Source: Tetrapisispora phaffii CBS 4417
Taxonomy: Eukaryota > Ascomycota > Saccharomycetes > Saccharomycetales > Saccharomycetaceae
NCBI RefSeq assembly: GCF_000236905.1
Contig: NC_016528.1
Location: 676,260 to 740,259 of the forward strand
DNA length: 64,000 bases
Direction: 5' to 3'
Each line of letters opens with the position of its first letter. Position 1 is the stretch's first letter. Shown piece by piece: positions 10,826-25,668 of the stretch. The notes beneath the pieces were generated by a model. It saw nothing but the letters and a program-made list of their open reading frames with translations. It did no database searches and was not told the origin of the DNA. A program made the translations under genes and the position numbers.

Positions 10826-13800
10826 ATGTGGTTTGATTTGATAATAAAATTGCCATTATTAGTTATAGCAACATGGCTTCTAATAAGACAGGTAATAAAG
10901 ACACTCTTTGGTATTTCGGCAGCCTACATTAATCCATTTACATTTAGAATCATTGGGTTTGAATATAAGGATATACTTAAGATAGAATTGCTTGAATTTA
11001 ATCCCTTTAGAAAAAGAATTAGAATATCAAAATTAACGTTTAACAATAAACAAATAGAAAACAAAAATCAAACTAATGCATCCAACCATAAAAAAACTAG
11101 CCATGGTCACAATTTGAAAGCTGTTTTACCCAAATGGCTATTTAAATATCTACCGCATCTTTTATCTTTTTTAAATGAAGTACATATTGTTGCTGACCAT
11201 GTGTTTTTGACGGATTACGATTTATATATCAGCACGATTGGGTCTGTTTTTAACTATAAAGAAATAACGTCATCATTATCCCTTGAACTTTTCATGAGGC
11301 AAGTGAAAAATAAGAACTCGACAATATTGACTGATACTCTTCAACAACTTGAAATAAACTTTGAAAAGATTGAAGTAGATCATTCAATTGTTTTTAACGA
11401 TATTAAGATAGATTCAAAGTTTGGTGTTTTACGTTTACCATACGCTTATTTAAAACAGCAGAGTGCTAGTACAAAGATAATCGAACCTGATAATATAGAA
11501 TCTAAACACTCTGATATACTATGTGATTTAGCGATTCAAGACACAATAAAAGCATTCCGTAAGAAATTAGAAAGAATACAAGGCTATTTAAAGCCGATTT
11601 GCGAAATTAACTTATATATGGATAAAATTTTACTGGACGATCTTGAATTAACTAATTTACCAGAATTGAATGAGATAAGCCAATATTTTACATATAACAT
11701 AGAAGCATCCAATGTTACATTAAATTTAATAAGATTTTCTAAAGACTACCCTGGTTATAATTTAAACTTTGGTGAAGATGACACTCCGTATAAGATCAAT
11801 AGTAATTTTTCAAGAGTAAATATCGGAGTAAAAATAAACAAAATAAATGAAAAAGAAATATATTTAGCAAAAATTATTGAAGTTCCTAGTATTAATTTAT
11901 ATGGCCACACGAATATTTTTTCGCAACAATTTCAATTTTCTGAGGGCCGGTTCGAAAATGCTTTAAGTACATTAAATTTCCAAATATCATCTTTGATCGT
12001 TGATTTAGATATAACAACACTTTCCTTTATAAAATCTTTTTCCCGTAATATAAAAGTTTTCAAAGGAGCCTTTGGATACTCTAAAGAAATTGATGCAATT
12101 GACCAACTCAAGGAATTTGAAGATCTTCGTTCACTAAAGTGGAGAAAGGTGCTAAAAACCTATTTAACATCATTGTTTCCATTATTAAACCTTAAATTTA
12201 CATTAGATGATTCAAAGATAATTTTAAATGATGAAACGGATACAATTATTTTCTACCTATCTGCTCTTCTAGGAACATACAAATCGAATAGATCTTTGTC
12301 ATTTTCTCAGAATGATAAGCTAGATTCTATTATAAATTATGATACTGCATTTGACTTAGAATTATCTGATTTACACTGTCAACATTTGATTACGGATGGA
12401 AGCAATTATAATCATAAAATTTTAGAAATTGAAAGTGTGTCTCTTAAGCAAAAGGTCAAGTGGTCACCAGAAATACAATTTTCATTTGACGGTGAAGTCG
12501 ATAACGTTAATATTGATTTATCAGAGTTACGGTCGATGATAGCCTTAAATAAAATTGTAAAGAAAACTGATTGTCAATTACTTCAAGTTGAAACTATTTA
12601 TTTCAAGGAACTTTACGATAAATTTGCAAAACAGTTGTATAATGCTGAATTCAACTGTTCAAGACTAAAAGAAATGCAATCAATAAAAAAGGTTTCTCCT
12701 GAAAGTTTCGTATTTAATACACTGCCAGATTATTTTGATTACATTAAGGTCGATTTAAGGAGAATACAAATGACACTAGGTATCAGATCTGTTTTTATGC
12801 CTCCTGATATTTTTTCGTTACTTGAAGCCCAAAGTCCAAAAGATCTTGTTGAGGGAAAATTAAGAAAATTTACAAATAAGGTGGATAAGGTACAGTTAGC
12901 TTTGTTCAGTAATAAAACTCAATGGCATAATAAAATAGAAATGGGACAAGTGTATATGTCTAAATCGGGACTAGATTCACTGAACAGGAACGATTCAAAT
13001 GATCTGGAGGATATTGGTACTTCACAGTCAACACAAATTGATCGTCTATGGAACTTTAATATATTGGTTAATAATGTAACATCATCTGTCATTTATGAAA
13101 CTTGTAAATTTAGTACAGAATTTTCGTCAAGAACAGTGTCAAGTTTGAAAGTAGTATCCATAAAAGTATTTCCAGAAACAGAGTCATATACAGTTCCAAG
13201 TGAGAACAAAGTAGTAATCGTCATTGATAATAAAAAAGCTAGTTCTATGGTTGATTTAATAAATGTTTTTATGGGAATATCCGGTTTCCATACACTAAAT
13301 CAGATATTTAGAAAAAACACATATTGTTCTGTTAAGGAGACGTGTGCAAAAAAAATTTTAGTATCATTGAATAAGGCTAAAAAGAAATCCTTCTGGTATT
13401 TTATTGACTGGGTAAAGTTTAAACAATTAATTCAAATAAGGTTATCTTCAGAGCTCTCTCGTCAAGTTTTGATCCTTCCTAATGCATTAAAAATCAAATT
13501 TGAATCTAGTAATATGTTTATATCAATTGATAAACTAAATGACATATGTATTAATGGTGAGCTAGCGAGGATGTGTGTTGAATCACCAACTCAAAAGGAT
13601 ACTTGGATAAGAATGATGTTAATCAATAAATTCAAGATGAATATTAACTTATCGGAGATGCTTCGCCAAATTAAGAATAATGAAACTGGAAATTCAGAGG
13701 TGCTCCCAGGAGTTACCTTGGCTTATGAATCTTCACATTTTTCTATTCCAAACAAATTTGCGATGTACCGAATTTTTGACAATATTTCAACTATTGTAAA

Positions 13801-16800
13801 ATCCTTGAAACAAATGATATACAGCATGAAAACATCACAATCAGACATAGTAATATTCCCAGTAACTGTTAATCCAGTAAGATTGCCAAACGTTAATTTA
13901 TCTTCCAAAAGGTCTATTATAACTATTGAAGATGATCCCCTCGAATCGGAATTAAACATGATATTTCAAATAGGTTTAGAGGAGCAGCGAATTAGATTAG
14001 AAAAAGTCAAACAATTTAAAAATAGTTTAGAACGTAAATATCAGGATACTAATAGCTCTGCTAATCAAAGTGAAAAAAATAATGATAAGTTCTCTTCTGA
14101 TGACACATACACTAAGTTGGTATTTCTTTCTAGTGCAAGAGGTTGCAAAAAATCCAAAAACATTTTAAAAAAACTGCTTTCTGCTAAGAAATCGGATAGA
14201 GAAACTTCAGAAAAAGAAGATGAACTCTTAGAAGATAAAAATCCAATTTTGATAAATGAACACGAGTCCTACATTAGATTACAGGAAAATATTTCAACAT
14301 CATGGATTAGAAGAATAAAGGATTATAAGAAGGTTGAAAAAGAAAAGTACGAAGAGAACTTTGAATATTTATGGGGGTTAACAAATTTACATAATATTTC
14401 AAAAGATTTCAATACTAATGTTCGTGATTTTATATATTCTCCTCCTTTGACCACAATAATAGTAGAAGGTATTGATATAAATATCAGTCAACCTTCATGT
14501 GGTCTTGAGTGCATTGCAGAATTTATCCACGATGTAGGTAAAGGAGTTCCTTTAGATACCCAATACTCTATTATGTTTCCCATGTACTTGGATGTAAATA
14601 TTAGGGAATTCAGATGGCATCTGAGAGATTATCCTTTACCATTTATTAATATCCCTCCCCCAACAGAAAACCAAAAAATTTCAAATAACTTCAAAATTTC
14701 AGGTGATTTATGCTTAACTGAAGCAATGATACAATCCAGCAATGAAATAAGAACAATATTCGTGCCACTTGTTCCTTCAGTTGAATTAGTTAATAAAGAC
14801 CATTATTACTCACTTTTTGTTCCAAGGACTTTGACAAGTGTTAAAGTGTATAGTAAATTAGAAATTGGTATTCATACAGAAAGAAGCACTCAGGTAGTCT
14901 GGGGTTCATCCTATTCGCCAGCTATTCAACAAGTAATGCAGTGTTTTGAAGATTTATCGAAACCACCCACAGATTTATCCCCTAAGTTAGGTGTGTGGGA
15001 TAAGATTAGATATATGTTTCATTCACGTATAAAGATCAATTGGGCCAAAAAGAACAGATTTGAAATATCTCTTCTAGGCGCTAAGAGCCCTTATAAAATT
15101 GGTCGAGAAGACGCAGGATTTATAATTGGTTTTAATGGTAACACTGTTTTGGACTGTAATCCAAATAACTCTCCAAAGCAATTATTAGCCTGCTCAGCTG
15201 ATCAGATCTATTTTTCAATACCAAATTATTTTGCAAAGCCGTTATTGGTATGGTCGATGCCTTCACACAAAAACATTTTTGTTCCTAATCAAGATAATAC
15301 AAATTTACAGACATATGCTTCTTACTATTACCTCCTTCAACAAGATTATAATAATGAAAGGAAAGAAGCAGTTAAATTGATGCAGAAACATTATATAGAA
15401 AAAAATGGTATTAAATTATCCGGGGGTATGACACTAAAACTTGGTTTTGTTTTTGAAGGGTTAGGTAAAGGAGGAATCCGTTCTAGCGATTTTGCACCAC
15501 ATTATGAAACCTTTCTATGTAATCCGATTTATGTTAAAGATTTATCGAAGTATGACGCTTATAAAAACTTTAAAAGTCATTTCATACACATGTCTTTTGC
15601 TCTATTATCAAATTCAAGTAATGCATATAATGCAATGCAATTAGACTCATCAGGAATGGACACATTCTTGAAATGGTGGAAATCGTTTTCAAATAACCCA
15701 CCCGTTCGAAGAGGTACATTATATGATGCTAAAAATTTGAGTCCAAAGTTTGGAGGTGCATTGAGAACTATTTCATATTATGCTAATGTATCTCCATTAT
15801 TTATCACTCATATCCAACGTAACATAGATATCAACAACACACAGTCATCCAGTTTCTATGAGAATATAGAATATGTAGGAATTAAAGCTAAGGTATCTAG
15901 GTTTGTCATGGATTTGCACCAAAGAAAAGAAGTTATATCAGAGTTCAGAGAGAAATTAAATGAACATAAAAGAGTTTCAAGAATGAAATTTTTAGAAGGT
16001 GATTTTTCTTCAGGAACAATTGATATCCGTACGATTCACGCAAAGTTTCACAAAGTCACTTTTATTGAGGATAAGCAAAATTATGAGTTTGATTTATATG
16101 AGGATGATGATAACTGGGTCGATATTTCCGATTTCAAGGAACCTTTTTCAATATCTATAGATGATTACACGCCTCATGTTACTATAAGACCATTGTTGTT
16201 GGCTCCTCAATTTGTTTATCAGAAAAGAGCTAAATATGGAGATAAATATCAACTAGATCCTGTCACATCAGAACCAATTCAGGCTTTTAAAAATGATATC
16301 TCTCATTGTTGCTGTGTTAATGGTCAAATTGACCTTCCAACAACTTATCAGGAAAAAAGAATTAGCACATTATTAACTAAGGAAAAAGAATTAAATGAGA
16401 AGCTGAAAATTGCCAATACTTCAGAAGAGAAGAGCTATTTACTGAAACATATAAATATGACTAAGCAAATTATTCAGCAATTGGAATATTTTATTGAAGA
16501 TACAAAAATGGTAGTGAACTCTAAAGGAAATGTTAAGCCAGAAGATCTACATTTCCAGGTTATAGATAAAGAAACAGAAGCATCAAAAAAGTTGTACGAA
16601 AATCGATACTTAATTTTTGGTATGTTTTTAAGATGGGATGAGGGTGCTAGAGATGTAATCACAACTTATTTGATGTATTTAAATCTTAATAGCTATTTTT
16701 CTAAAATAGACCGATATAAGTCAATAAGGACATTTGAAGACATTGTGAATCAAAAAAGTGGCACAGTTGGGAGTCCTTCTAATTACAACTCCGAACAGAA

Positions 16801-18643
16801 TTTTAAAACCTCAATCTTAGAAAGTTCTACACAATCTGCTAAGAATCATGGTACAAAGCAAGAAAAGGAAGAAGACATATTGAAATATTTTGAGATTGGT
16901 TTAAGAAAGTTAATTACATCAATAAATTATACTACTAGCGAAGATCATTTTGTTCAATTTCTAGCTCCGCAAATACAGCTTTCTTCAAAATTTGAACCAA
17001 ATTCGTGTATAGTAATTGCTGCACCGTTAATAAAATTAAGAGTACTATCATTTGCTAGCGCTAATAATAATGATGTATTTATTCAAGATACATTTTTGAA
17101 ACGGTATGGTATACTTATATCGAAAGCTAATGTGTTTTTATTTCATAAAGACAAATTTAAAGATTCGATGGACATATTTTTCCAGTGTTTAGCTTACGGC
17201 CAGACAAAAGAAGTTCCTTGGTCACCTTGGTTAGGAGCAGAGTCGTGTTTTGATCCATCTGCCTTAAGTGATTCAACAATAATCAAAAATTTAAACACAA
17301 CTATTTATCTTGATTCGATATATGAGTTCTCATCCGTTTATGAATTTGTTAGACATCAATTACAAGATTGTATGAATATTTACATTCCGAAAGTACAGGT
17401 AACATGTGATTCTAGAAGTTACCTAACATTATTTAAAATATCCACGAACCTATTCATGTCAATGAAGCTAACAGATCCAGTCTTGAAGAAGAAAATAGAT
17501 AAAGTATCTATAAGCTTTGATTTTACCGAATTAAGGAAAATATATGACACTACAGTGTTGTTATCAAATGTTATCCATAAATCCCAGTTGGCTGAAAACG
17601 AATCGATTTTTAGACAAAAGCTATTGGACGATGCAGGTTTAGTTGATTTATTCAATATACACAATGAACGTATAACGAATCTTTCAAAGTTGTACATTTT
17701 ACTACACGTTTTATGTTCTAGGCGTAAAGAAAGGCATGAGTTTACTAAGAGCATGGAGTGGAACATCGATGTCGAGAGCATAGAATTGCTAATGCTACAA
17801 AAAGATTCAACGCCATTTTTGACTGTAGTATCAAAAGATATTAAATTTAATAGGGTTGCTTCATCATCGGGTTATAATTCTAATACAATAACGGTAAAAG
17901 CCGCTGATATATTTAATCTTGAAGATACTGCGGCTTACAAAAACTTGCTAGGCCCATACGTTACTCAAAAGAAACTTCTACGAAAAAGTATAACAGAGGA
18001 AAATAAACCGATGTTCCATATTAATTGGGTTATGGATAAACCTATTGGTGGAATAAAAGTTGTCAAGAGTGTAGAGACTTTTGTTCAGGGTCTCTCTGTG
18101 AGCATTGAAGAGGAAACAGTACTTAAATTAGTACATTGGTTATTACCGCATGAGGTTGCATCTGCATTGCATACTAATGATGAATCAGATGAAGAAAGTG
18201 ATGTAGAATCACTAAATAGTGAATTTTATTTCAATGGAGAAGATAATAGTGAATTGAATGAAATGATTCAAAGATCTACTGACTTTGTGATCATGGAAAA
18301 TATTGTGATTAATGGGTTCAAGCTCTGTATCAGCTTCAAAGGTAAGGGATCCAAAAGATTGATCAACGTCACAGACTTTGTATTCAACTTCCCTAAACTA
18401 AGTTTTGTGAATCAAACCATGAGATCGATTGATATCATCATAATATTGAAAAAAGTGCTAATAAAAGCATTACTGAAACAGAGTGGTAAGTTCCTGTTGT
18501 CAAAATTGAAGAGAAGACCTGCGTTAGAATCGAGTTCATTGTTATTGCCACATTCTGTACCATTGAGTAAAACACTTAGTGCAAATAGCAAAGTAAGTGA
18601 AGGGGAGCAATTAAAACAATCAGAAATCCAAATCCCCATCTAG
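10826..18643 (+). CDS. FMP27: Bridge-like lipid transfer protein of the Hobbit/FMP27 family
   Basis: A single uninterrupted 2605-codon frame, matching the length of S. cerevisiae Fmp27 (2628 aa) better than its relative YPR117W (2489 aa). Family members are rod-shaped hydrophobic-groove proteins anchored in the ER by an N-terminal membrane helix and acting at ER-plasma membrane contacts. Residues 1-27 (WFDLIIKLPLLVIATWLLI...) form that helix. The named family motifs are present: GVWDK near residue 1389 (the GFWDK domain), HQR near 1697, and a PWSPW variant of the WPPW motif near 2128. The ATG at 10826 is preceded in frame by a TAA at 10817. Position between TIF3 and RHO1, and SST2 nearby, support the YLR454W orthologue. 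An acidic, Ser-rich segment near residue 2450 and a basic C-terminal tail are less conserved. Confidence 0.93.
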   Translation: MWFDLIIKLPLLVIATWLLIRQVIKTLFGISAAYINPFTFRIIGFEYKDILKIELLEFNPFRKRIRISKLTFNNKQIENKNQTNASNHKKTSHGHNLKAVLPKWLFKYLPHLLSFLNEVHIVADHVFLTDYDLYISTIGSVFNYKEITSSLSLELFMRQVKNKNSTILTDTLQQLEINFEKIEVDHSIVFNDIKIDSKFGVLRLPYAYLKQQSASTKIIEPDNIESKHSDILCDLAIQDTIKAFRKKLERIQGYLKPICEINLYMDKILLDDLELTNLPELNEISQYFTYNIEASNVTLNLIRFSKDYPGYNLNFGEDDTPYKINSNFSRVNIGVKINKINEKEIYLAKIIEVPSINLYGHTNIFSQQFQFSEGRFENALSTLNFQISSLIVDLDITTLSFIKSFSRNIKVFKGAFGYSKEIDAIDQLKEFEDLRSLKWRKVLKTYLTSLFPLLNLKFTLDDSKIILNDETDTIIFYLSALLGTYKSNRSLSFSQNDKLDSIINYDTAFDLELSDLHCQHLITDGSNYNHKILEIESVSLKQKVKWSPEIQFSFDGEVDNVNIDLSELRSMIALNKIVKKTDCQLLQVETIYFKELYDKFAKQLYNAEFNCSRLKEMQSIKKVSPESFVFNTLPDYFDYIKVDLRRIQMTLGIRSVFMPPDIFSLLEAQSPKDLVEGKLRKFTNKVDKVQLALFSNKTQWHNKIEMGQVYMSKSGLDSLNRNDSNDLEDIGTSQSTQIDRLWNFNILVNNVTSSVIYETCKFSTEFSSRTVSSLKVVSIKVFPETESYTVPSENKVVIVIDNKKASSMVDLINVFMGISGFHTLNQIFRKNTYCSVKETCAKKILVSLNKAKKKSFWYFIDWVKFKQLIQIRLSSELSRQVLILPNALKIKFESSNMFISIDKLNDICINGELARMCVESPTQKDTWIRMMLINKFKMNINLSEMLRQIKNNETGNSEVLPGVTLAYESSHFSIPNKFAMYRIFDNISTIVKSLKQMIYSMKTSQSDIVIFPVTVNPVRLPNVNLSSKRSIITIEDDPLESELNMIFQIGLEEQRIRLEKVKQFKNSLERKYQDTNSSANQSEKNNDKFSSDDTYTKLVFLSSARGCKKSKNILKKLLSAKKSDRETSEKEDELLEDKNPILINEHESYIRLQENISTSWIRRIKDYKKVEKEKYEENFEYLWGLTNLHNISKDFNTNVRDFIYSPPLTTIIVEGIDINISQPSCGLECIAEFIHDVGKGVPLDTQYSIMFPMYLDVNIREFRWHLRDYPLPFINIPPPTENQKISNNFKISGDLCLTEAMIQSSNEIRTIFVPLVPSVELVNKDHYYSLFVPRTLTSVKVYSKLEIGIHTERSTQVVWGSSYSPAIQQVMQCFEDLSKPPTDLSPKLGVWDKIRYMFHSRIKINWAKKNRFEISLLGAKSPYKIGREDAGFIIGFNGNTVLDCNPNNSPKQLLACSADQIYFSIPNYFAKPLLVWSMPSHKNIFVPNQDNTNLQTYASYYYLLQQDYNNERKEAVKLMQKHYIEKNGIKLSGGMTLKLGFVFEGLGKGGIRSSDFAPHYETFLCNPIYVKDLSKYDAYKNFKSHFIHMSFALLSNSSNAYNAMQLDSSGMDTFLKWWKSFSNNPPVRRGTLYDAKNLSPKFGGALRTISYYANVSPLFITHIQRNIDINNTQSSSFYENIEYVGIKAKVSRFVMDLHQRKEVISEFREKLNEHKRVSRMKFLEGDFSSGTIDIRTIHAKFHKVTFIEDKQNYEFDLYEDDDNWVDISDFKEPFSISIDDYTPHVTIRPLLLAPQFVYQKRAKYGDKYQLDPVTSEPIQAFKNDISHCCCVNGQIDLPTTYQEKRISTLLTKEKELNEKLKIANTSEEKSYLLKHINMTKQIIQQLEYFIEDTKMVVNSKGNVKPEDLHFQVIDKETEASKKLYENRYLIFGMFLRWDEGARDVITTYLMYLNLNSYFSKIDRYKSIRTFEDIVNQKSGTVGSPSNYNSEQNFKTSILESSTQSAKNHGTKQEKEEDILKYFEIGLRKLITSINYTTSEDHFVQFLAPQIQLSSKFEPNSCIVIAAPLIKLRVLSFASANNNDVFIQDTFLKRYGILISKANVFLFHKDKFKDSMDIFFQCLAYGQTKEVPWSPWLGAESCFDPSALSDSTIIKNLNTTIYLDSIYEFSSVYEFVRHQLQDCMNIYIPKVQVTCDSRSYLTLFKISTNLFMSMKLTDPVLKKKIDKVSISFDFTELRKIYDTTVLLSNVIHKSQLAENESIFRQKLLDDAGLVDLFNIHNERITNLSKLYILLHVLCSRRKERHEFTKSMEWNIDVESIELLMLQKDSTPFLTVVSKDIKFNRVASSSGYNSNTITVKAADIFNLEDTAAYKNLLGPYVTQKKLLRKSITEENKPMFHINWVMDKPIGGIKVVKSVETFVQGLSVSIEEETVLKLVHWLLPHEVASALHTNDESDEESDVESLNSEFYFNGEDNSELNEMIQRSTDFVIMENIVINGFKLCISFKGKGSKRLINVTDFVFNFPKLSFVNQTMRSIDIIIILKKVLIKALLKQSGKFLLSKLKRRPALESSSLLLPHSVPLSKTLSANSKVSEGEQLKQSEIQIPI

Positions 18644-19773: not shown

Positions 19774-20403
19774 ATGTCTCAGCAAGTAGGTAGTAACATT
19801 AGAAGAAAGCTGGTTATCGTTGGTGATGGTGCTTGTGGTAAGACATGTTTGTTGATTGTCTTTTCCAAGGGTCAGTTCCCAGAAGTTTACGTTCCAACCG
19901 TTTTTGAAAACTATGTCGCAGATGTCGAAGTCGATGGTCGTCGTGTCGAATTGGCACTATGGGATACTGCTGGTCAAGAAGATTACGATAGGTTGAGACC
20001 TCTTTCTTATCCAGATTCAAATGTCGTGTTGATTTGTTTCTCCATTGATCTACCAGATTCTTTAGAAAATGTGCAAGAAAAATGGATCGCTGAAGTTCTA
20101 CATTTTTGTCAAGGCGTTCCAATCATCCTAGTCGGTTGTAAAGTCGATCTAAGAAACGACCCACAAGCCATCGAATATCTAAGAGAAGCAGGTCAACAAC
20201 CAGTCTCTACTGCAGAAGGCCAAGCTGTCGCCGATCAAATAGGTGCCACTGGCTATTTTGAATGCTCTGCTAAAACCGGTTACGGTGTAAGAGAAGTATT
20301 CGAGGCTGCTACCAGAGCTTCTTTAATGGGGAAATCAAAGAACAATGGTAAACAAAAGAAGAAGACTTCAGAAAAGAAGAAGAGAAAGTGTGTTGTCTTG
20401 TAA
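19774..20403 (+). CDS. RHO1: Rho-type small GTPase Rho1
   Basis: Encodes 209 aa, identical in length to S. cerevisiae Rho1 and very similar. Rho1 is the membrane switch that activates beta-1,3-glucan synthase, Pkc1, formins and the exocyst for wall growth and polarity. All G motifs are canonical: GDGACGKT (17-24), effector loop [18 protein letters not shown] (Gln68), GCKVDL and ECSAK. The C-terminus is polybasic and ends in CVVL, a geranylgeranylation-type CAAX box. The ATG at 19774 gives [13 protein letters not shown] divergent paralogue follows 0.67 kb downstream in the same orientation. MRP2 and JIP5 beyond it match S. cerevisiae chromosome XVI order. Confidence 0.98.
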
Positions 20404-21071
20404 GAAAATTTTAGATCACCCTAACCACGATTACTCATGTCTGAACAAATTAAATAATAATAAAAAATAATAATAGTAAAAAAAATCAAACAAAAATATT
20501 CAGGTTTAATTTTAACATTCAGATTATATATAATTCTCATTTGATTATTTATGAGTGTATAAAATCATACAATCAACTTATCCATTCAATGATATCATTA
20601 ATGTTACATTGGTTTTAGTAACTTATCATTATATAATTAATTATTATTAAATAACTTATAATTTAAATATATCCGCTCATTTTACATTTTAATTAAAGGT
20701 TAGAATAAGAATAATATTGTAGATAATTGCATAAACAATACACGATGCTGAACCTTGACTCCCATGTATCTCATCTTTGTAATGAGATATCTTACCAATA
20801 TAATTGCTTAATCAAGAGCACACGCAGCTGCCATTATCAGCACTTTTTTCGGTCTCGAGGGTTTTTTAGTGTCACATATTATTAAATTATTTATTTATCG
20901 TTATAAATAAAACATACCATTCTGGTGGTCAAATAGTGTTAGTAGTTTTGTTAAATGGCAATAGAATATCTATAGTAGTAGTACTACTAAGCTAAAAATT
21001 GCAAGAACCTGTTTTATTTCTATTTTACTTTACCCTAAATAACTATATTTTTGTCCAGTGACACTGAGGAA
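20404..21071. other. Intergenic region between RHO1 and its tandem paralogue
   Basis: 0.67 kb, very AT-rich, with no supported gene. A short inverted palindromic run (TAGTAGTACTACTA) lies at 20974-20987. No LTR, tRNA or other duplication junction is evident, so the mechanism of the RHO1 duplication is not visible. Confidence 0.5.
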
Positions 21072-21731
21072 ATGGAAGAAATAAAATTAACTGATACCTC
21101 ATTTTCCTCAAATACATCAACCCATAATGACTTTCGTTATAATAAAAAGTTAGTTATAGTGGGGGATGCCTACACTGGGAAGACTGCACTTCTGGTAGCT
21201 TGTCGAAGTAACCAGTTCTCACCAGTGTACGTGCCAACTGTCTTTGATTGTGGCTCAAAGCTATTCAATTTTGAAGATAAGAAAGTGGATATGAGATTTT
21301 GGGATACATCAGGTAAAGATGACTATATAAGATTAAGACCTCTCTCGTACCCGAACTCACATGTTGTGTTATTGTGTTATTCAATTGATTCAAGAGAATC
21401 ACTAAATAATGTTATAGAAAAATGGTCATCGGAAGTATTCCATTACTGTAAAAAGAATGCCAGTATTCTCTTAGTCGGATGCAAAGTTGATCTGAGGAAT
21501 GACCCAGATACAATAGCAAAGCTCAAACTACAAAACACAGTGTCTATATCGAAAGAAGAAGGTATCCGAGCAGCAGAGGAAATTGGGGCAATTCAACATA
21601 TCGAGACATCTGCTCTTACAGGATATGGCATAAAAGAATTGTTTGAAGAAGCTGTCAAAGTGACAATGACAGACTCCAATGTCGTCAGAAAAAGAAAAAA
21701 ACTTAGAATATGCAGATGTACAATAATGTGA
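21072..21731 (+). CDS. Divergent tandem Rho1 paralogue, predicted GTPase-deficient
   Basis: Encodes 219 aa from the ATG at 21072; the open frame extends only seven codons further upstream, to a TTG. It is clearly Rho1-derived ([19 protein letters not shown]) but altered at catalytic positions. The P-loop reads GDAYTGKT (31-38), so the residue equal to Rho1 Gly19 is Ala33. Switch II reads WDTSGKDDY, so Gln68 is replaced by Lys82 and the preceding Ala by Ser. The effector loop is YVPTVFDCGSKL instead of ...[13 protein letters not shown] and the C-terminal CRCTIM box are kept; its last residue Met favours farnesylation, whereas Rho1 ends in Leu. Known biochemistry of these positions predicts slow or absent GTP hydrolysis. 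The intact frame and prenylation box argue against a pseudogene. No equivalent exists here in S. cerevisiae. Confidence 0.85.
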   Translation: MEEIKLTDTSFSSNTSTHNDFRYNKKLVIVGDAYTGKTALLVACRSNQFSPVYVPTVFDCGSKLFNFEDKKVDMRFWDTSGKDDYIRLRPLSYPNSHVVLLCYSIDSRESLNNVIEKWSSEVFHYCKKNASILLVGCKVDLRNDPDTIAKLKLQNTVSISKEEGIRAAEEIGAIQHIETSALTGYGIKELFEEAVKVTMTDSNVVRKRKKLRICRCTIM

Positions 21732-21971: not shown

Positions 21972-22319
21972 TTACCATATACCTTTTTTAACACCTGGTA
22001 GATCACCTGCCAGAGCCTTTTCTCTAAATTGAGTCCTACATAGTCTGAAATCACTCAAAACAGCCCTTGAATGACCTGTCTCTACGCATCTGTTATGCAC
22101 TTGAGTTGAACGTGTGTAGTTAGGCATCACACTCAGTTGCAATTGGGCCTCCAGTCTAGCCCTTGGAGGTAACGCCGTATTCCTGCTGATGTATTTCAAT
22201 GCCTTGATCGTTATTTCATTCTCAGCTACCTGTTGCCTCTTAAAATTATCTTTCAAGATCCTGGCATTCACAAACCCAGGAGGTAATTTAGTCTTGAATG
22301 GAAATCTGAAATTGCCCAT
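21972..22319 (-). CDS. MRP2: Mitochondrial small-subunit ribosomal protein uS14m
   Basis: Encodes 115 aa, the length of S. cerevisiae Mrp2. It is the uS14 protein of the mitochondrial ribosome small subunit. The C-terminal half carries the family signature [20 protein letters not shown] followed by [17 protein letters not shown] at the C-terminus. There is no zinc CXXC pair, as in other mitochondrial and C-minus forms. The start ATG at 22319 gives [15 protein letters not shown]. No obvious cleavable presequence is seen, also as in S. cerevisiae. Its position between RHO1 and JIP5 matches chromosome XVI, although MET16 and NUT2 are missing. Confidence 0.96.
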
Positions 22320-22986: not shown

Positions 22987-24546
22987 ATGGCTAAGAAGAA
23001 AAATTCTACAAAGACTAATTTAGAAAGTTTGGTCTCGTCAGCTTTACCTATTGTCGAGTTTAAGCATAAGGATCCTCTGTTTCAAGTTGCATGCCATCCT
23101 GAAAAGCCGATCGTCGTTAGTGGGACTGCCACTGGCTATATCTTCTGCCATCAATATGATGCTACTGTGTTGCAAGAGGCAGTCGACAGAAGGCGCAAAT
23201 CTGCTACAGATGATTCGACAAAGAAAGATAAAAATGAGAAGTTTTGGGCAGTGGTCGAGGTTCCAAGTGAAGACACGGAAGATATTGCTGGTATCAAGTT
23301 GCTTTGGAAGACAAAAAGACATAAAGAGAGTGTAAGAGGCATTGCTTTGGACTCAGATGGGAAGTATATGTATTCTGTTAGCAGTGATAATGTATTAAAG
23401 AAGTCAGAGACTGAAACAGGTAAAGTTCTGAAGAAGATTACTCTTTCTGAACAACCAAAAGATGCCAAGTTTACAAAAATCGTCAAATCTAGCACCCATC
23501 CATTTTTAGTTTTGGGTGATGAAGTTGGTAATGTATTAGTGCTGGATAGCGAGACTTTGCAAGAAAAAAATAAATTGATCGATATTCACGATGGTAAAGA
23601 TGCTATAAATGACATCTTCCATTTTTCTAGAAGATCAGCATATAAATTTATATCACTAGGCCAAACTACCTTGGGTTACTGGGACGCGAGAGAATCCAAC
23701 CAGTCTGATAAGAAAATATTACCAGATGATACTGACTCGAAAAGAATGGTGCTACTAAGTGATGACCAAGAAGATGAGATTTTATGTGGTACTTTTGTAG
23801 ACCCTGAAGTTGGTGATACTATAGTATGTGGTATGGGAGAAGGCCTGCTAACAGTTTGGAAACCTGAAAAGAATGGTTTGGAAGATCAACTTACAAGAAT
23901 TAAAATTGCAGCCGATGAGAGTATTGACTGTATTATACCTACTTTGCAAGATGATAATTGTATCTGGTGTGGTTGTTCAAATGGTAAAATATACAAGGCA
24001 AATGCTAAAAGTGGTAAGGTCATTGAAATAAGAAAACATAGCAATTTAGATGAGGTTGCATTTCTTGATTTAGACTGCGAGTACAGAGTCATCAGTGGTG
24101 GCATGGATAGCGTCAAGATATGGGAATTGAATGACGTCAATGTAGAAGTCAAAGACAATAGTAACAAAGACGAGAGTGATTTTAGTATGAGCGACAGTGA
24201 TATTTCAATCAGTGATTCTGATGAAGAAAATGAAGATAATTCTGTGAATGAAGATGAAGAAGTCGAAGTTCCTGCAACTGAAGAATGGGCAGGTTTTGAA
24301 AGTGAAACTTCGGATACAGAGAGTGTAGAAAATGATGATGAAAAAGGACTAATTGGTCTATCAAAAGAGCAACTAATGAAAGAGCTTGATAAGGATATAT
24401 TGGGTCTATCTGACTCTGATAATGAAACAAATTCTAAGAGGAAGACTCGAGGTTCAAAGTTTCAAAAGAAACAGAAGAAACAGAAAATTCAAAAAGAGGT
24501 TGCCCATAATGACAACCATGGTATTACTAAATTTGAAGGTTTATAA
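22987..24546 (+). CDS. JIP5: WD-repeat ribosome biogenesis protein Jip5
   Basis: Encodes 519 aa (S. cerevisiae Jip5 has 492). Jip5 is a nucleolar WD40 protein of the WDR55 family needed for large-subunit production. A beta-propeller covers about residues 20-385, starting at EFKHKDPLFQVACHP. It is followed by a long acidic Ser/Asp/Glu-rich stretch (about 390-465) and a basic nucleolar-type tail rich in Lys and Gln that ends HGITKFEGL, as in the S. cerevisiae protein. The ATG at 22987 gives MAKKKNSTKTNLESLV. Synteny with MRP2 on one side and the V-ATPase f gene and BSP1 on the other agrees. Confidence 0.94.
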   Translation: MAKKKNSTKTNLESLVSSALPIVEFKHKDPLFQVACHPEKPIVVSGTATGYIFCHQYDATVLQEAVDRRRKSATDDSTKKDKNEKFWAVVEVPSEDTEDIAGIKLLWKTKRHKESVRGIALDSDGKYMYSVSSDNVLKKSETETGKVLKKITLSEQPKDAKFTKIVKSSTHPFLVLGDEVGNVLVLDSETLQEKNKLIDIHDGKDAINDIFHFSRRSAYKFISLGQTTLGYWDARESNQSDKKILPDDTDSKRMVLLSDDQEDEILCGTFVDPEVGDTIVCGMGEGLLTVWKPEKNGLEDQLTRIKIAADESIDCIIPTLQDDNCIWCGCSNGKIYKANAKSGKVIEIRKHSNLDEVAFLDLDCEYRVISGGMDSVKIWELNDVNVEVKDNSNKDESDFSMSDSDISISDSDEENEDNSVNEDEEVEVPATEEWAGFESETSDTESVENDDEKGLIGLSKEQLMKELDKDILGLSDSDNETNSKRKTRGSKFQKKQKKQKIQKEVAHNDNHGITKFEGL

Positions 24547-24684: not shown

Positions 24685-24685
24685 T

Positions 24686-24759
24686 TGGTCCCTAGCGGGA
24701 TCGAACCGCTGATCCCCGCGTTATTAGCACGATGCCTTAACCAACTGGGCCAAGGGACC
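24686..24759 (-). tRNA. tRNA-Ile (anticodon AAT)
   Basis: On the minus strand a 74-nt cloverleaf is complete. The acceptor stem pairs GGTCCCT with AGGGACC, followed by discriminator A. The D-arm contains the A box around GGCCCAGTTGG, the anticodon loop reads CTAATAA (anticodon AAT, read as IAU after editing), and the T-arm contains the B box GGTTCGATCC. There is no intron. It differs from the S. cerevisiae tRNA-Ile(AAT) gene at very few positions. Confidence 0.97.
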
Positions 24760-25668
24760 ATATATTATGTGATTGGTGTAAAACTATTGGGATTACTATT
24801 GCTTAATATAAAGTGTATCTTGAGACGGGTGCTTGTATAATTTGTTGATATTACTATAACTGTGGAGAAACAAGCTTATGTTGGTTAGAACCAACGTCTA
24901 AGTTAGTGTCATTAGCCACTTTAGTTGCTTCCGAGTAGTCCATCTTCGTAATAGTTAACTAATCGATTGGTCTTTTATTAGTATATTTAAACAATTATAT
25001 ATAGAGTTAGATGTCCTCTTAATATATAAGTTATTGTTTGAAATGACACTGGACGTATAAGTGAATATACGATACCAGATATTACCTGTTTAGGAGATTA
25101 TTGTTGTAAACCTGAAAGAATAGTGCCTACGAGAATGTAATAGCAGAATTTCTAATTCATAAACAGTACTGAAGAACCATCAGACTTCCTTACTTGCACA
25201 ATGCTACGACGATGTCTTGTTGAATAGAACAGTAGATTGAAATATTATGTATATATAAACCCCTGTAATCAGTAGTTAACAATTCATGGATCCAGGTCCA
25301 AGAGACCAGAGAGATTAATCTGAATATATAGTATATAATTTAACTACATTTTAATATATTAAAGCAATGAATACAACTATTGAGCACGTAAATGCTGCCT
25401 TATAGCACTTAACCAATCGACATAAAAGAATGTTTCATCCGTTTTATTACTGTCACTTTTATCTGACACTTGTCACGTGATATGGTTGCTGAGAGTGGTT
25501 GCGAAATTCGAAACATACCAAACTCAAGATTCAAAGAACATTATAAGAACAACTGATACAAAATAAATTATAGATATATTGATTAATGTTATTACATGTA
25601 CTCCATACTTCAATCCATTTTCTAATACAGTAAGAATAGACCATAATTATACAAGTTTTAATAATAAG
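24760..25668. other. Intergenic region upstream of tRNA-Ile and of the V-ATPase f gene
   Basis: 0.9 kb without a supported gene. It contains a perfect 7+2+7 hairpin (GTTGGTTAGAACCAAC at 24880-24895), a TATATATAAA box at 25249-25258 and a TCACGTGA Cbf1-type site at 25473-25480. The position 5' of a tRNA gene is one where Ty elements insert. I looked for LTR remnants and found only a weak candidate (see findings). Confidence 0.5.
25473..25480. promoter_or_regulatory. Cbf1-type E-box TCACGTGA upstream of the V-ATPase f gene
   Basis: A perfect 8-bp palindrome within GTCACGTGAT matches the Cbf1 consensus (RTCACRTG), 189 bp upstream of the predicted ATG at 25669. TGTCAC motifs flank it on the left. 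Function is inferred. Confidence 0.4.

Follow-up and report, generated by a model that had tools for sequence, protein, structure and literature searches.

Within the window analyzed, i.e., the whole stretch of 64,000 nucleotides of Tetrapisispora phaffii DNA, we observe a canonical RHO1 gene adjoined on the same strand by a second, strongly diverged Rho gene, in the gene order FMP27/Hobbit, RHO1, the diverged gene, a ribosomal protein S14 family gene on the opposite strand, and a WD40-like gene (Table 1). A tRNA-Ile gene (anticodon aat) is located just past the WD40-like gene, at 24685-24760 on the minus strand. The protein encoded by the adjacent RHO1 shows approximately 90% identity with a number of RHO1 proteins from yeasts (among the best 120 of 3446 matches). 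The frame of the diverged gene runs for 219 codons from an ATG at 21072 to a stop ending at 21731, contains no internal stops, and extends upstream as an open frame to a TTG at 21051 in the ORF listing. A scan of the intergenic region for ten yeast regulatory patterns gave TATA-like matches and a single match of SFF type, at 20731, with the other eight patterns giving no match in this region; promoter motif scans upstream of the diverged gene returned nothing useful, and a bacterial-type scan carries little meaning in yeast. Our search of open-licence PMC papers found no literature on this gene.

Table 1. Coordinates of the genes and features discussed (window positions, except for the RHO4-like gene, which lies elsewhere in the genome)
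Feature	Coordinates	Strand	Remarks
FMP27/Hobbit gene, upstream neighbour	10826..18643	+	PF10344
Canonical RHO1 (class a), 209 aa, CVVL	19774..20403	+	canonical residues
Intergenic region, 668 bp, upstream of the diverged gene	20404..21071	.	pattern scan only
Diverged Rho gene (probable RHO1b)	21072..21731	+	219 aa; GDAYTGKT / WDTSGK / CTIM
P-loop codons GDAYTGKT, G31-T38	21162..21185	+	Ala at Ras-G12 position; coordinates counted from ATG
Rewritten beta2-beta3 effector hairpin, D59-F76	21246..21299	+	near-invariant columns changed 10/10
WDTSGKDDY, W77-Y85	21300..21326	+	Ser, Lys at Ras A59, Q61 positions
C-terminal RCTIM (R215-M219) and stop	21714..21731	+	RKRKK and second Cys (C214) precede
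Ribosomal protein S14 family gene (MRP2-like), downstream neighbour	21972..22319	-	PF00253
WD40-like gene	22987-24546		best Pfam match under its curated cut-off
RHO4-like gene, 345 aa	G000:C2:695000-696700 (L026; L032:422-1459)	-	best match RHO1, 5.9e-29

The diverged protein is a Rho homologue (Pfam profile match to PF00071, E 1.1e-40), and its Ras-fold G domain with nucleotide-binding boxes is evident from this match, from the binding columns described below, and from the fold of its structure model. Alignment showed the Rho insert region to be free of gaps, C216 of the CTIM motif to be in register, and one additional residue to be present just ahead of G4. Membership of another Rho subfamily was rejected, with RHO1 the nearest relative in the genome (48%), followed by the Cdc42-like protein (44%) and the remaining Rho loci (37-39%). 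Examination of the tail (21687-21728) showed that it reads ICRCTIM after the basic run RKRKK, with a second Cys (C214) two residues before the CAAX Cys that is a possible extra lipidation site.

Using an alignment of 57 rows, comprising the diverged protein and 56 others hand-picked from 166 proteins, we classed as near-invariant the 94 columns conserved in at least 55 of the 56 other rows. The diverged protein keeps 60 of these 94 columns and changes 34. Rho1 residues G19, A66, and Q68 are replaced by A33, S80, and K82, in columns that each hold a single letter in all 56 other rows; all three hydrolysis columns are changed (hypergeometric p 0.045), a value that is weak by itself given the overall divergence. 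None of the 13 near-invariant columns that we selected, on general grounds, as binding the nucleotide or Mg2+ (G17, D18, G22, K23, T24, T42, D64, G67, K123, D125, L126, S165, and A166) is changed (hypergeometric p 0.0017; Fisher p 0.0034), with Lys167 of the SAK box, a less conserved column that is not among the 94, replaced by Leu. In addition, P-loop residues A20 and C21 are replaced by Tyr and Thr. Every one of the 10 near-invariant positions in the beta2-beta3 hairpin (columns 45-62) is changed, with a p of 1.5e-5 that is optimistic because this segment was picked after the data were seen, and 11 of 13 near-invariant positions are kept in the switch II helix. The effector loop reads VFDCGSK, as against VFENYVA in RHO1, and the CAAX motif is the Met-ended CTIM, as against CVVL. 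A compensated frameshift behind the odd effector loop was rejected by eye, with no simple one-base shift giving the Rho1 reading. These findings uphold what an earlier, sequence-only reading of this DNA had claimed, namely that an intact Rho gene lies directly downstream of a canonical RHO1 (here a frame of 219 codons, 668 bp away), that it carries G19A, A66S, and Q68K (GDAYTGKT and WDTSGKDDY, now mapped in the 57-row alignment), and that its effector loop is rewritten and its CAAX box changed from CVVL to CTIM.

To place these substitutions we surveyed 174 fetched proteins, of which 161 contain G, A, and Q at the three hydrolysis positions. Only three have all three positions changed, i.e., the diverged protein (A, S, K), P0078 (A, S, S), and P0079 (T, S, S), the last two being fish proteins named RhoN-like (Rnd2-type); in ten further rows one or two positions differ or are gapped. 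The likeness does not extend to descent from the Rnd clade, since the nearest relatives are yeast Rho1 proteins (48% identity to the adjacent Rho1, with bit scores of approximately 190-200 against yeast class b Rho1, as against 137 for P0078 and 136 for P0079), and because of this we regard the resemblance as convergent. The same reading had held that Rnd proteins are constitutively GTP-bound through substitutions at equivalent sites, and the literature agrees: PMC8305018 calls RND and RHOH GTPase-deficient for want of Gly12 and Gln61 and ties the GTP-bound state of RND to these Ras positions. Its proposal of a neofunctionalised, Rnd-like Rho stood in part, in that hydrolysis residues are lost, nucleotide-binding residues kept, the hairpin rewritten, and the CAAX box Met-ended, and failed in part, in that the gene is probably not a new duplicate. 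The "locked on" state of the protein is a prediction from these residues.

Yeast Rho1 proteins fall into two residue classes, a and b, with some rows mixed, and class b is recognized by the signature FAKGKFP, DNYVA, and KWISE. Among the matches listed, Lachancea mirantina, L. nothofagi, L. dasiensis, and L. meyersii each contain a class a and a class b protein on neighbouring locus tags, and adjacent locus-tag numbers presumably denote adjacent genes. Portions of two published studies describe the same arrangement, with a tandem RHO1 pair (ABR182W/ABR183W) in Ashbya gossypii and A. aceri and a tandem duplication in E. cymbalariae (PMC3737163), and with the duplication retained by several Saccharomycetaceae and also present in the putative ancestor that S. 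cerevisiae shares with A. gossypii (PMC4149541). We are fairly confident that the diverged gene descends from RHO1b, the downstream member of this ancestral RHO1a-RHO1b pair; the sequence favours this identity, short of proof, and the position adds support. The two genes are most likely the old pair of the Saccharomycetaceae and not the outcome of a new duplication. In trees of the 57 rows, the diverged protein falls in the class b set with support of 100/98 (C20 by PMSF, on a branch of length 10) and 100/99 (LG+G4), this set consisting of 17 class b rows together with three rows labelled as outgroup (two of Hanseniaspora type and P0149). Placement on each of 109 branches gave class b and its stem a relative-likelihood weight of 0.77 (LG+G4) and 0.81 (LG+R4), with the best position next to the class b proteins of Zygosaccharomyces.

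The other account of its origin, in which RHO1b was lost first and the adjacent RHO1 was then copied in tandem in this lineage alone, with fast divergence of the copy, we consider unlikely. It draws on AU tests in which none of the alternatives was rejected (p 0.337 for the diverged protein as sister to the adjacent RHO1, 0.421 to class a, and 0.422 to the outgroup), on class a weights of 0.18 (LG+G4) and 0.13 (LG+R4) with the best class a placement only 0.76 and 1.33 log units behind, and on Gln48, which agrees with class a; the six a/b diagnostic sites divide into two b, one a, and three neither. Against it, direct placement as sister to RHO1 trails the best by 3.15 (LG+G4) and 4.09 (LG+R4) log units, a loss of RHO1b plus a fresh duplication at the same spot would be required, and PMC4149541 assigns the duplication itself to an ancestor shared by S. 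cerevisiae and A. gossypii. A recent duplication was rejected, with only short, weak direct repeats present (29 nt at 72-76% and 20 nt at 80%) and with 44% protein identity over 204 aligned codons and saturated dS. Among 94 matches, the best 120 of 3446, and the best 120 of 7629, we recognized no further post-duplication yeast with a class b protein, although many of these rows bear no species name. Two observations on relatives are recorded here. P0003, a Zygosaccharomyces bailii ISA1307 RHO1 gene model (226 aa) in which the switch region is repeated internally, to all appearance through an error of assembly or annotation, ranked first among relatives of the diverged protein in one listing (94 matches), with class b rows next. 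Rho1 of Hanseniaspora type (P0033 and P0053) looks class b and that of Saccharomycodes ludwigii (P0145) groups weakly with class a, and therefore RHO1a and RHO1b may have separated before Saccharomycodaceae and Saccharomycetaceae did.

Decay, i.e., a RHO1b under relaxed selection that retains an open frame with little or no function and is heading for loss, is the main and strong rival to a working Rnd-like Rho; we see it as a real possibility, though a minority one. Among 19 frames (itself and 18 others hand-picked from the window), the gene ranks last in coding score and last but one in synonymous score, as would be expected under low expression or relaxed selection. No protein with more than 51% identity over half its length was present among 94 matches and the best 120 of 7629, so recent constraint is unproven; P0075, among the matches listed, reaches 60% identity over 26% of the length only. 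The 34 altered near-invariant columns point the same way, as does a second degraded Rho gene in this genome. We searched 12,115,070 bases on 17 contigs for Rho-type genes, obtaining 32 matches and reading the sequences of part of them, and identified a RHO4-like frame with GDSSVGKT (Ser at the Ras-G12 position), DVSADK in place of DTAGQE, and Lys for the Thr of switch I; it lacks a CAAX box. By eye its neighbours resemble YSR3/LCB3, MRS4, TIF1, UTP30, KTR2, and TFA2, an order that we take to be that around RHO4 in S. cerevisiae. Among the loci whose sequences were read there was no further RHO4 candidate, and the Cdc42-like gene and the presumed Rho2, Rho3, and Rho5 have canonical motifs, giving two of seven recognized Rho-type genes with hydrolysis residues lost. 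The RHO4-like gene appears to be a second degraded or re-purposed Rho. Two such genes may mean that constraint on Rho proteins has loosened in this lineage, a finding that speaks as much against a special role of the diverged gene as for one, and together with the weak codon signals they leave room for relaxed selection.

Other evidence weighs against decay. When the RHO1 frame was randomly point-mutated to a protein identity of 0.44 (substitutions only, kappa 2.5, G+C 0.35), 0 of 400 simulated frames stayed open, with a mean of 7.7 stops, as compared with 146 of 400 at an identity of 0.95 and 77 of 400 at 0.9; the gene was therefore long under constraint, although a recent release would not be visible in this way. 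Comparison with RHO1 (dN 0.52-0.54, dS 1.9 or 3.8 and saturated, NG86 not computable) informs on past constraint alone. The retention of every binding column, of the basic tail, and of the CAAX motif, and the concentration of changes in the hairpin, also speak for maintenance. An AlphaFold2 model (pLDDT 85.3, pTM 0.82) has an ordinary Rho fold and is matched by structures of Rho1, RhoA, and Rac, including that of Rac1 P29S among the matches listed; this match is expected from a Rho1-rich alignment and is silent on hydrolysis. A further account holds that the protein is mostly GTP-bound through quick exchange, or by another catalytic route, and is not dead for hydrolysis. It gains from the replacement of Pro36 by Ser, at what we take to be the site of Rac1 P29S, a change presumably with fast exchange, and from the Tyr at the Ras-G13 position. 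We regard it as very improbable, the equivalent of Ras F28 (F35) being retained and Gln68, which portions of PMC8072805 and PMC8305018 describe as required for hydrolysis, being Lys.

Our preferred reading, which we would put at about an even chance, is that an old RHO1b has become a working, Rnd-like protein predicted to be GTP-locked. RHO1b would have changed fast with its open frame and GTP/Mg2+ site maintained, the neighbouring class a RHO1 presumably covering the essential work. The product would most likely be a membrane-anchored Rho that binds GTP, hydrolyses it poorly, and is blind to RhoGAPs, and its control would therefore lie, as with Rnd, in expression, prenylation, and partners, and not in a GTP/GDP cycle. 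Because the core of switch I and the helix of switch II are retained and the beta2-beta3 hairpin is rewritten, it should contact only some of the Rho1 partners or vie with Rho1 for them, and its partners and any effect on the cell wall are likewise to be read as predicted. A bolder form, which we advance tentatively, is that of an independent yeast Rnd-class Rho, in which RHO1b would be GTP-locked, GAP-blind, and farnesylated and would modulate or counteract Rho1 through a new effector surface, such that, with RHO4, two of seven recognized Rho proteins would lie outside the GTPase cycle. If the prediction is true, this would be an independent natural shift from a cycling to a constitutively GTP-bound Rho, in a host close to baker's yeast, whose Rho1 partners are well mapped, and the fate of RHO1b in one post-duplication yeast would be revealed; if the gene is a relic, a RHO gene has been caught at a late stage of loss.

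Among the known systems is a RhoH of Ashbya, reportedly described by Walther and Wendland in 2005. Mammalian RhoH is classed as GTPase-deficient through changes at the sites altered here (excerpts of PMC8072805 and PMC8305018), and differs in its residues (GDSAV and AGNDA) and its CKIF box (PMC8072805, in part). As for the vertebrate Rnd proteins, according to the same excerpt of PMC8072805, Rnd1-3 carry substitutions at each of the Ras positions 12, 59, and 61 and have Met-ended CAAX boxes, as does the diverged protein, and Rnd2/RhoN (GDAEC and SGSSY) shares G12A and A59S with it exactly, differing at position 61, where Rnd2 has Ser and the diverged protein Lys. The tandem RHO1a/RHO1b pair, already known from Ashbya and other Saccharomycetaceae, provides a parallel for the locus, since in A. 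gossypii the two copies (ABR182W/ABR183W) form a tandem pair, are functionally diverged, and are described as ancestral (PMC3737163 and PMC4149541, in the parts consulted). There, the odd copy is Rho1a, with one Tyr-to-His change in switch I (PMC3737163, in part), whereas here it is the probable b copy that is rewritten. ABR182W (P0034) and the class b protein of E. cymbalariae (P0020) retain the hydrolysis residues that the diverged protein lacks. Agrho1b mutants are similar to Scrho1 mutants in the sections available from PMC4149541, i.e., Rho1b and not Rho1a acts like ScRho1 in Ashbya, so that a relic RHO1b beside a working RHO1a would be the reverse case.
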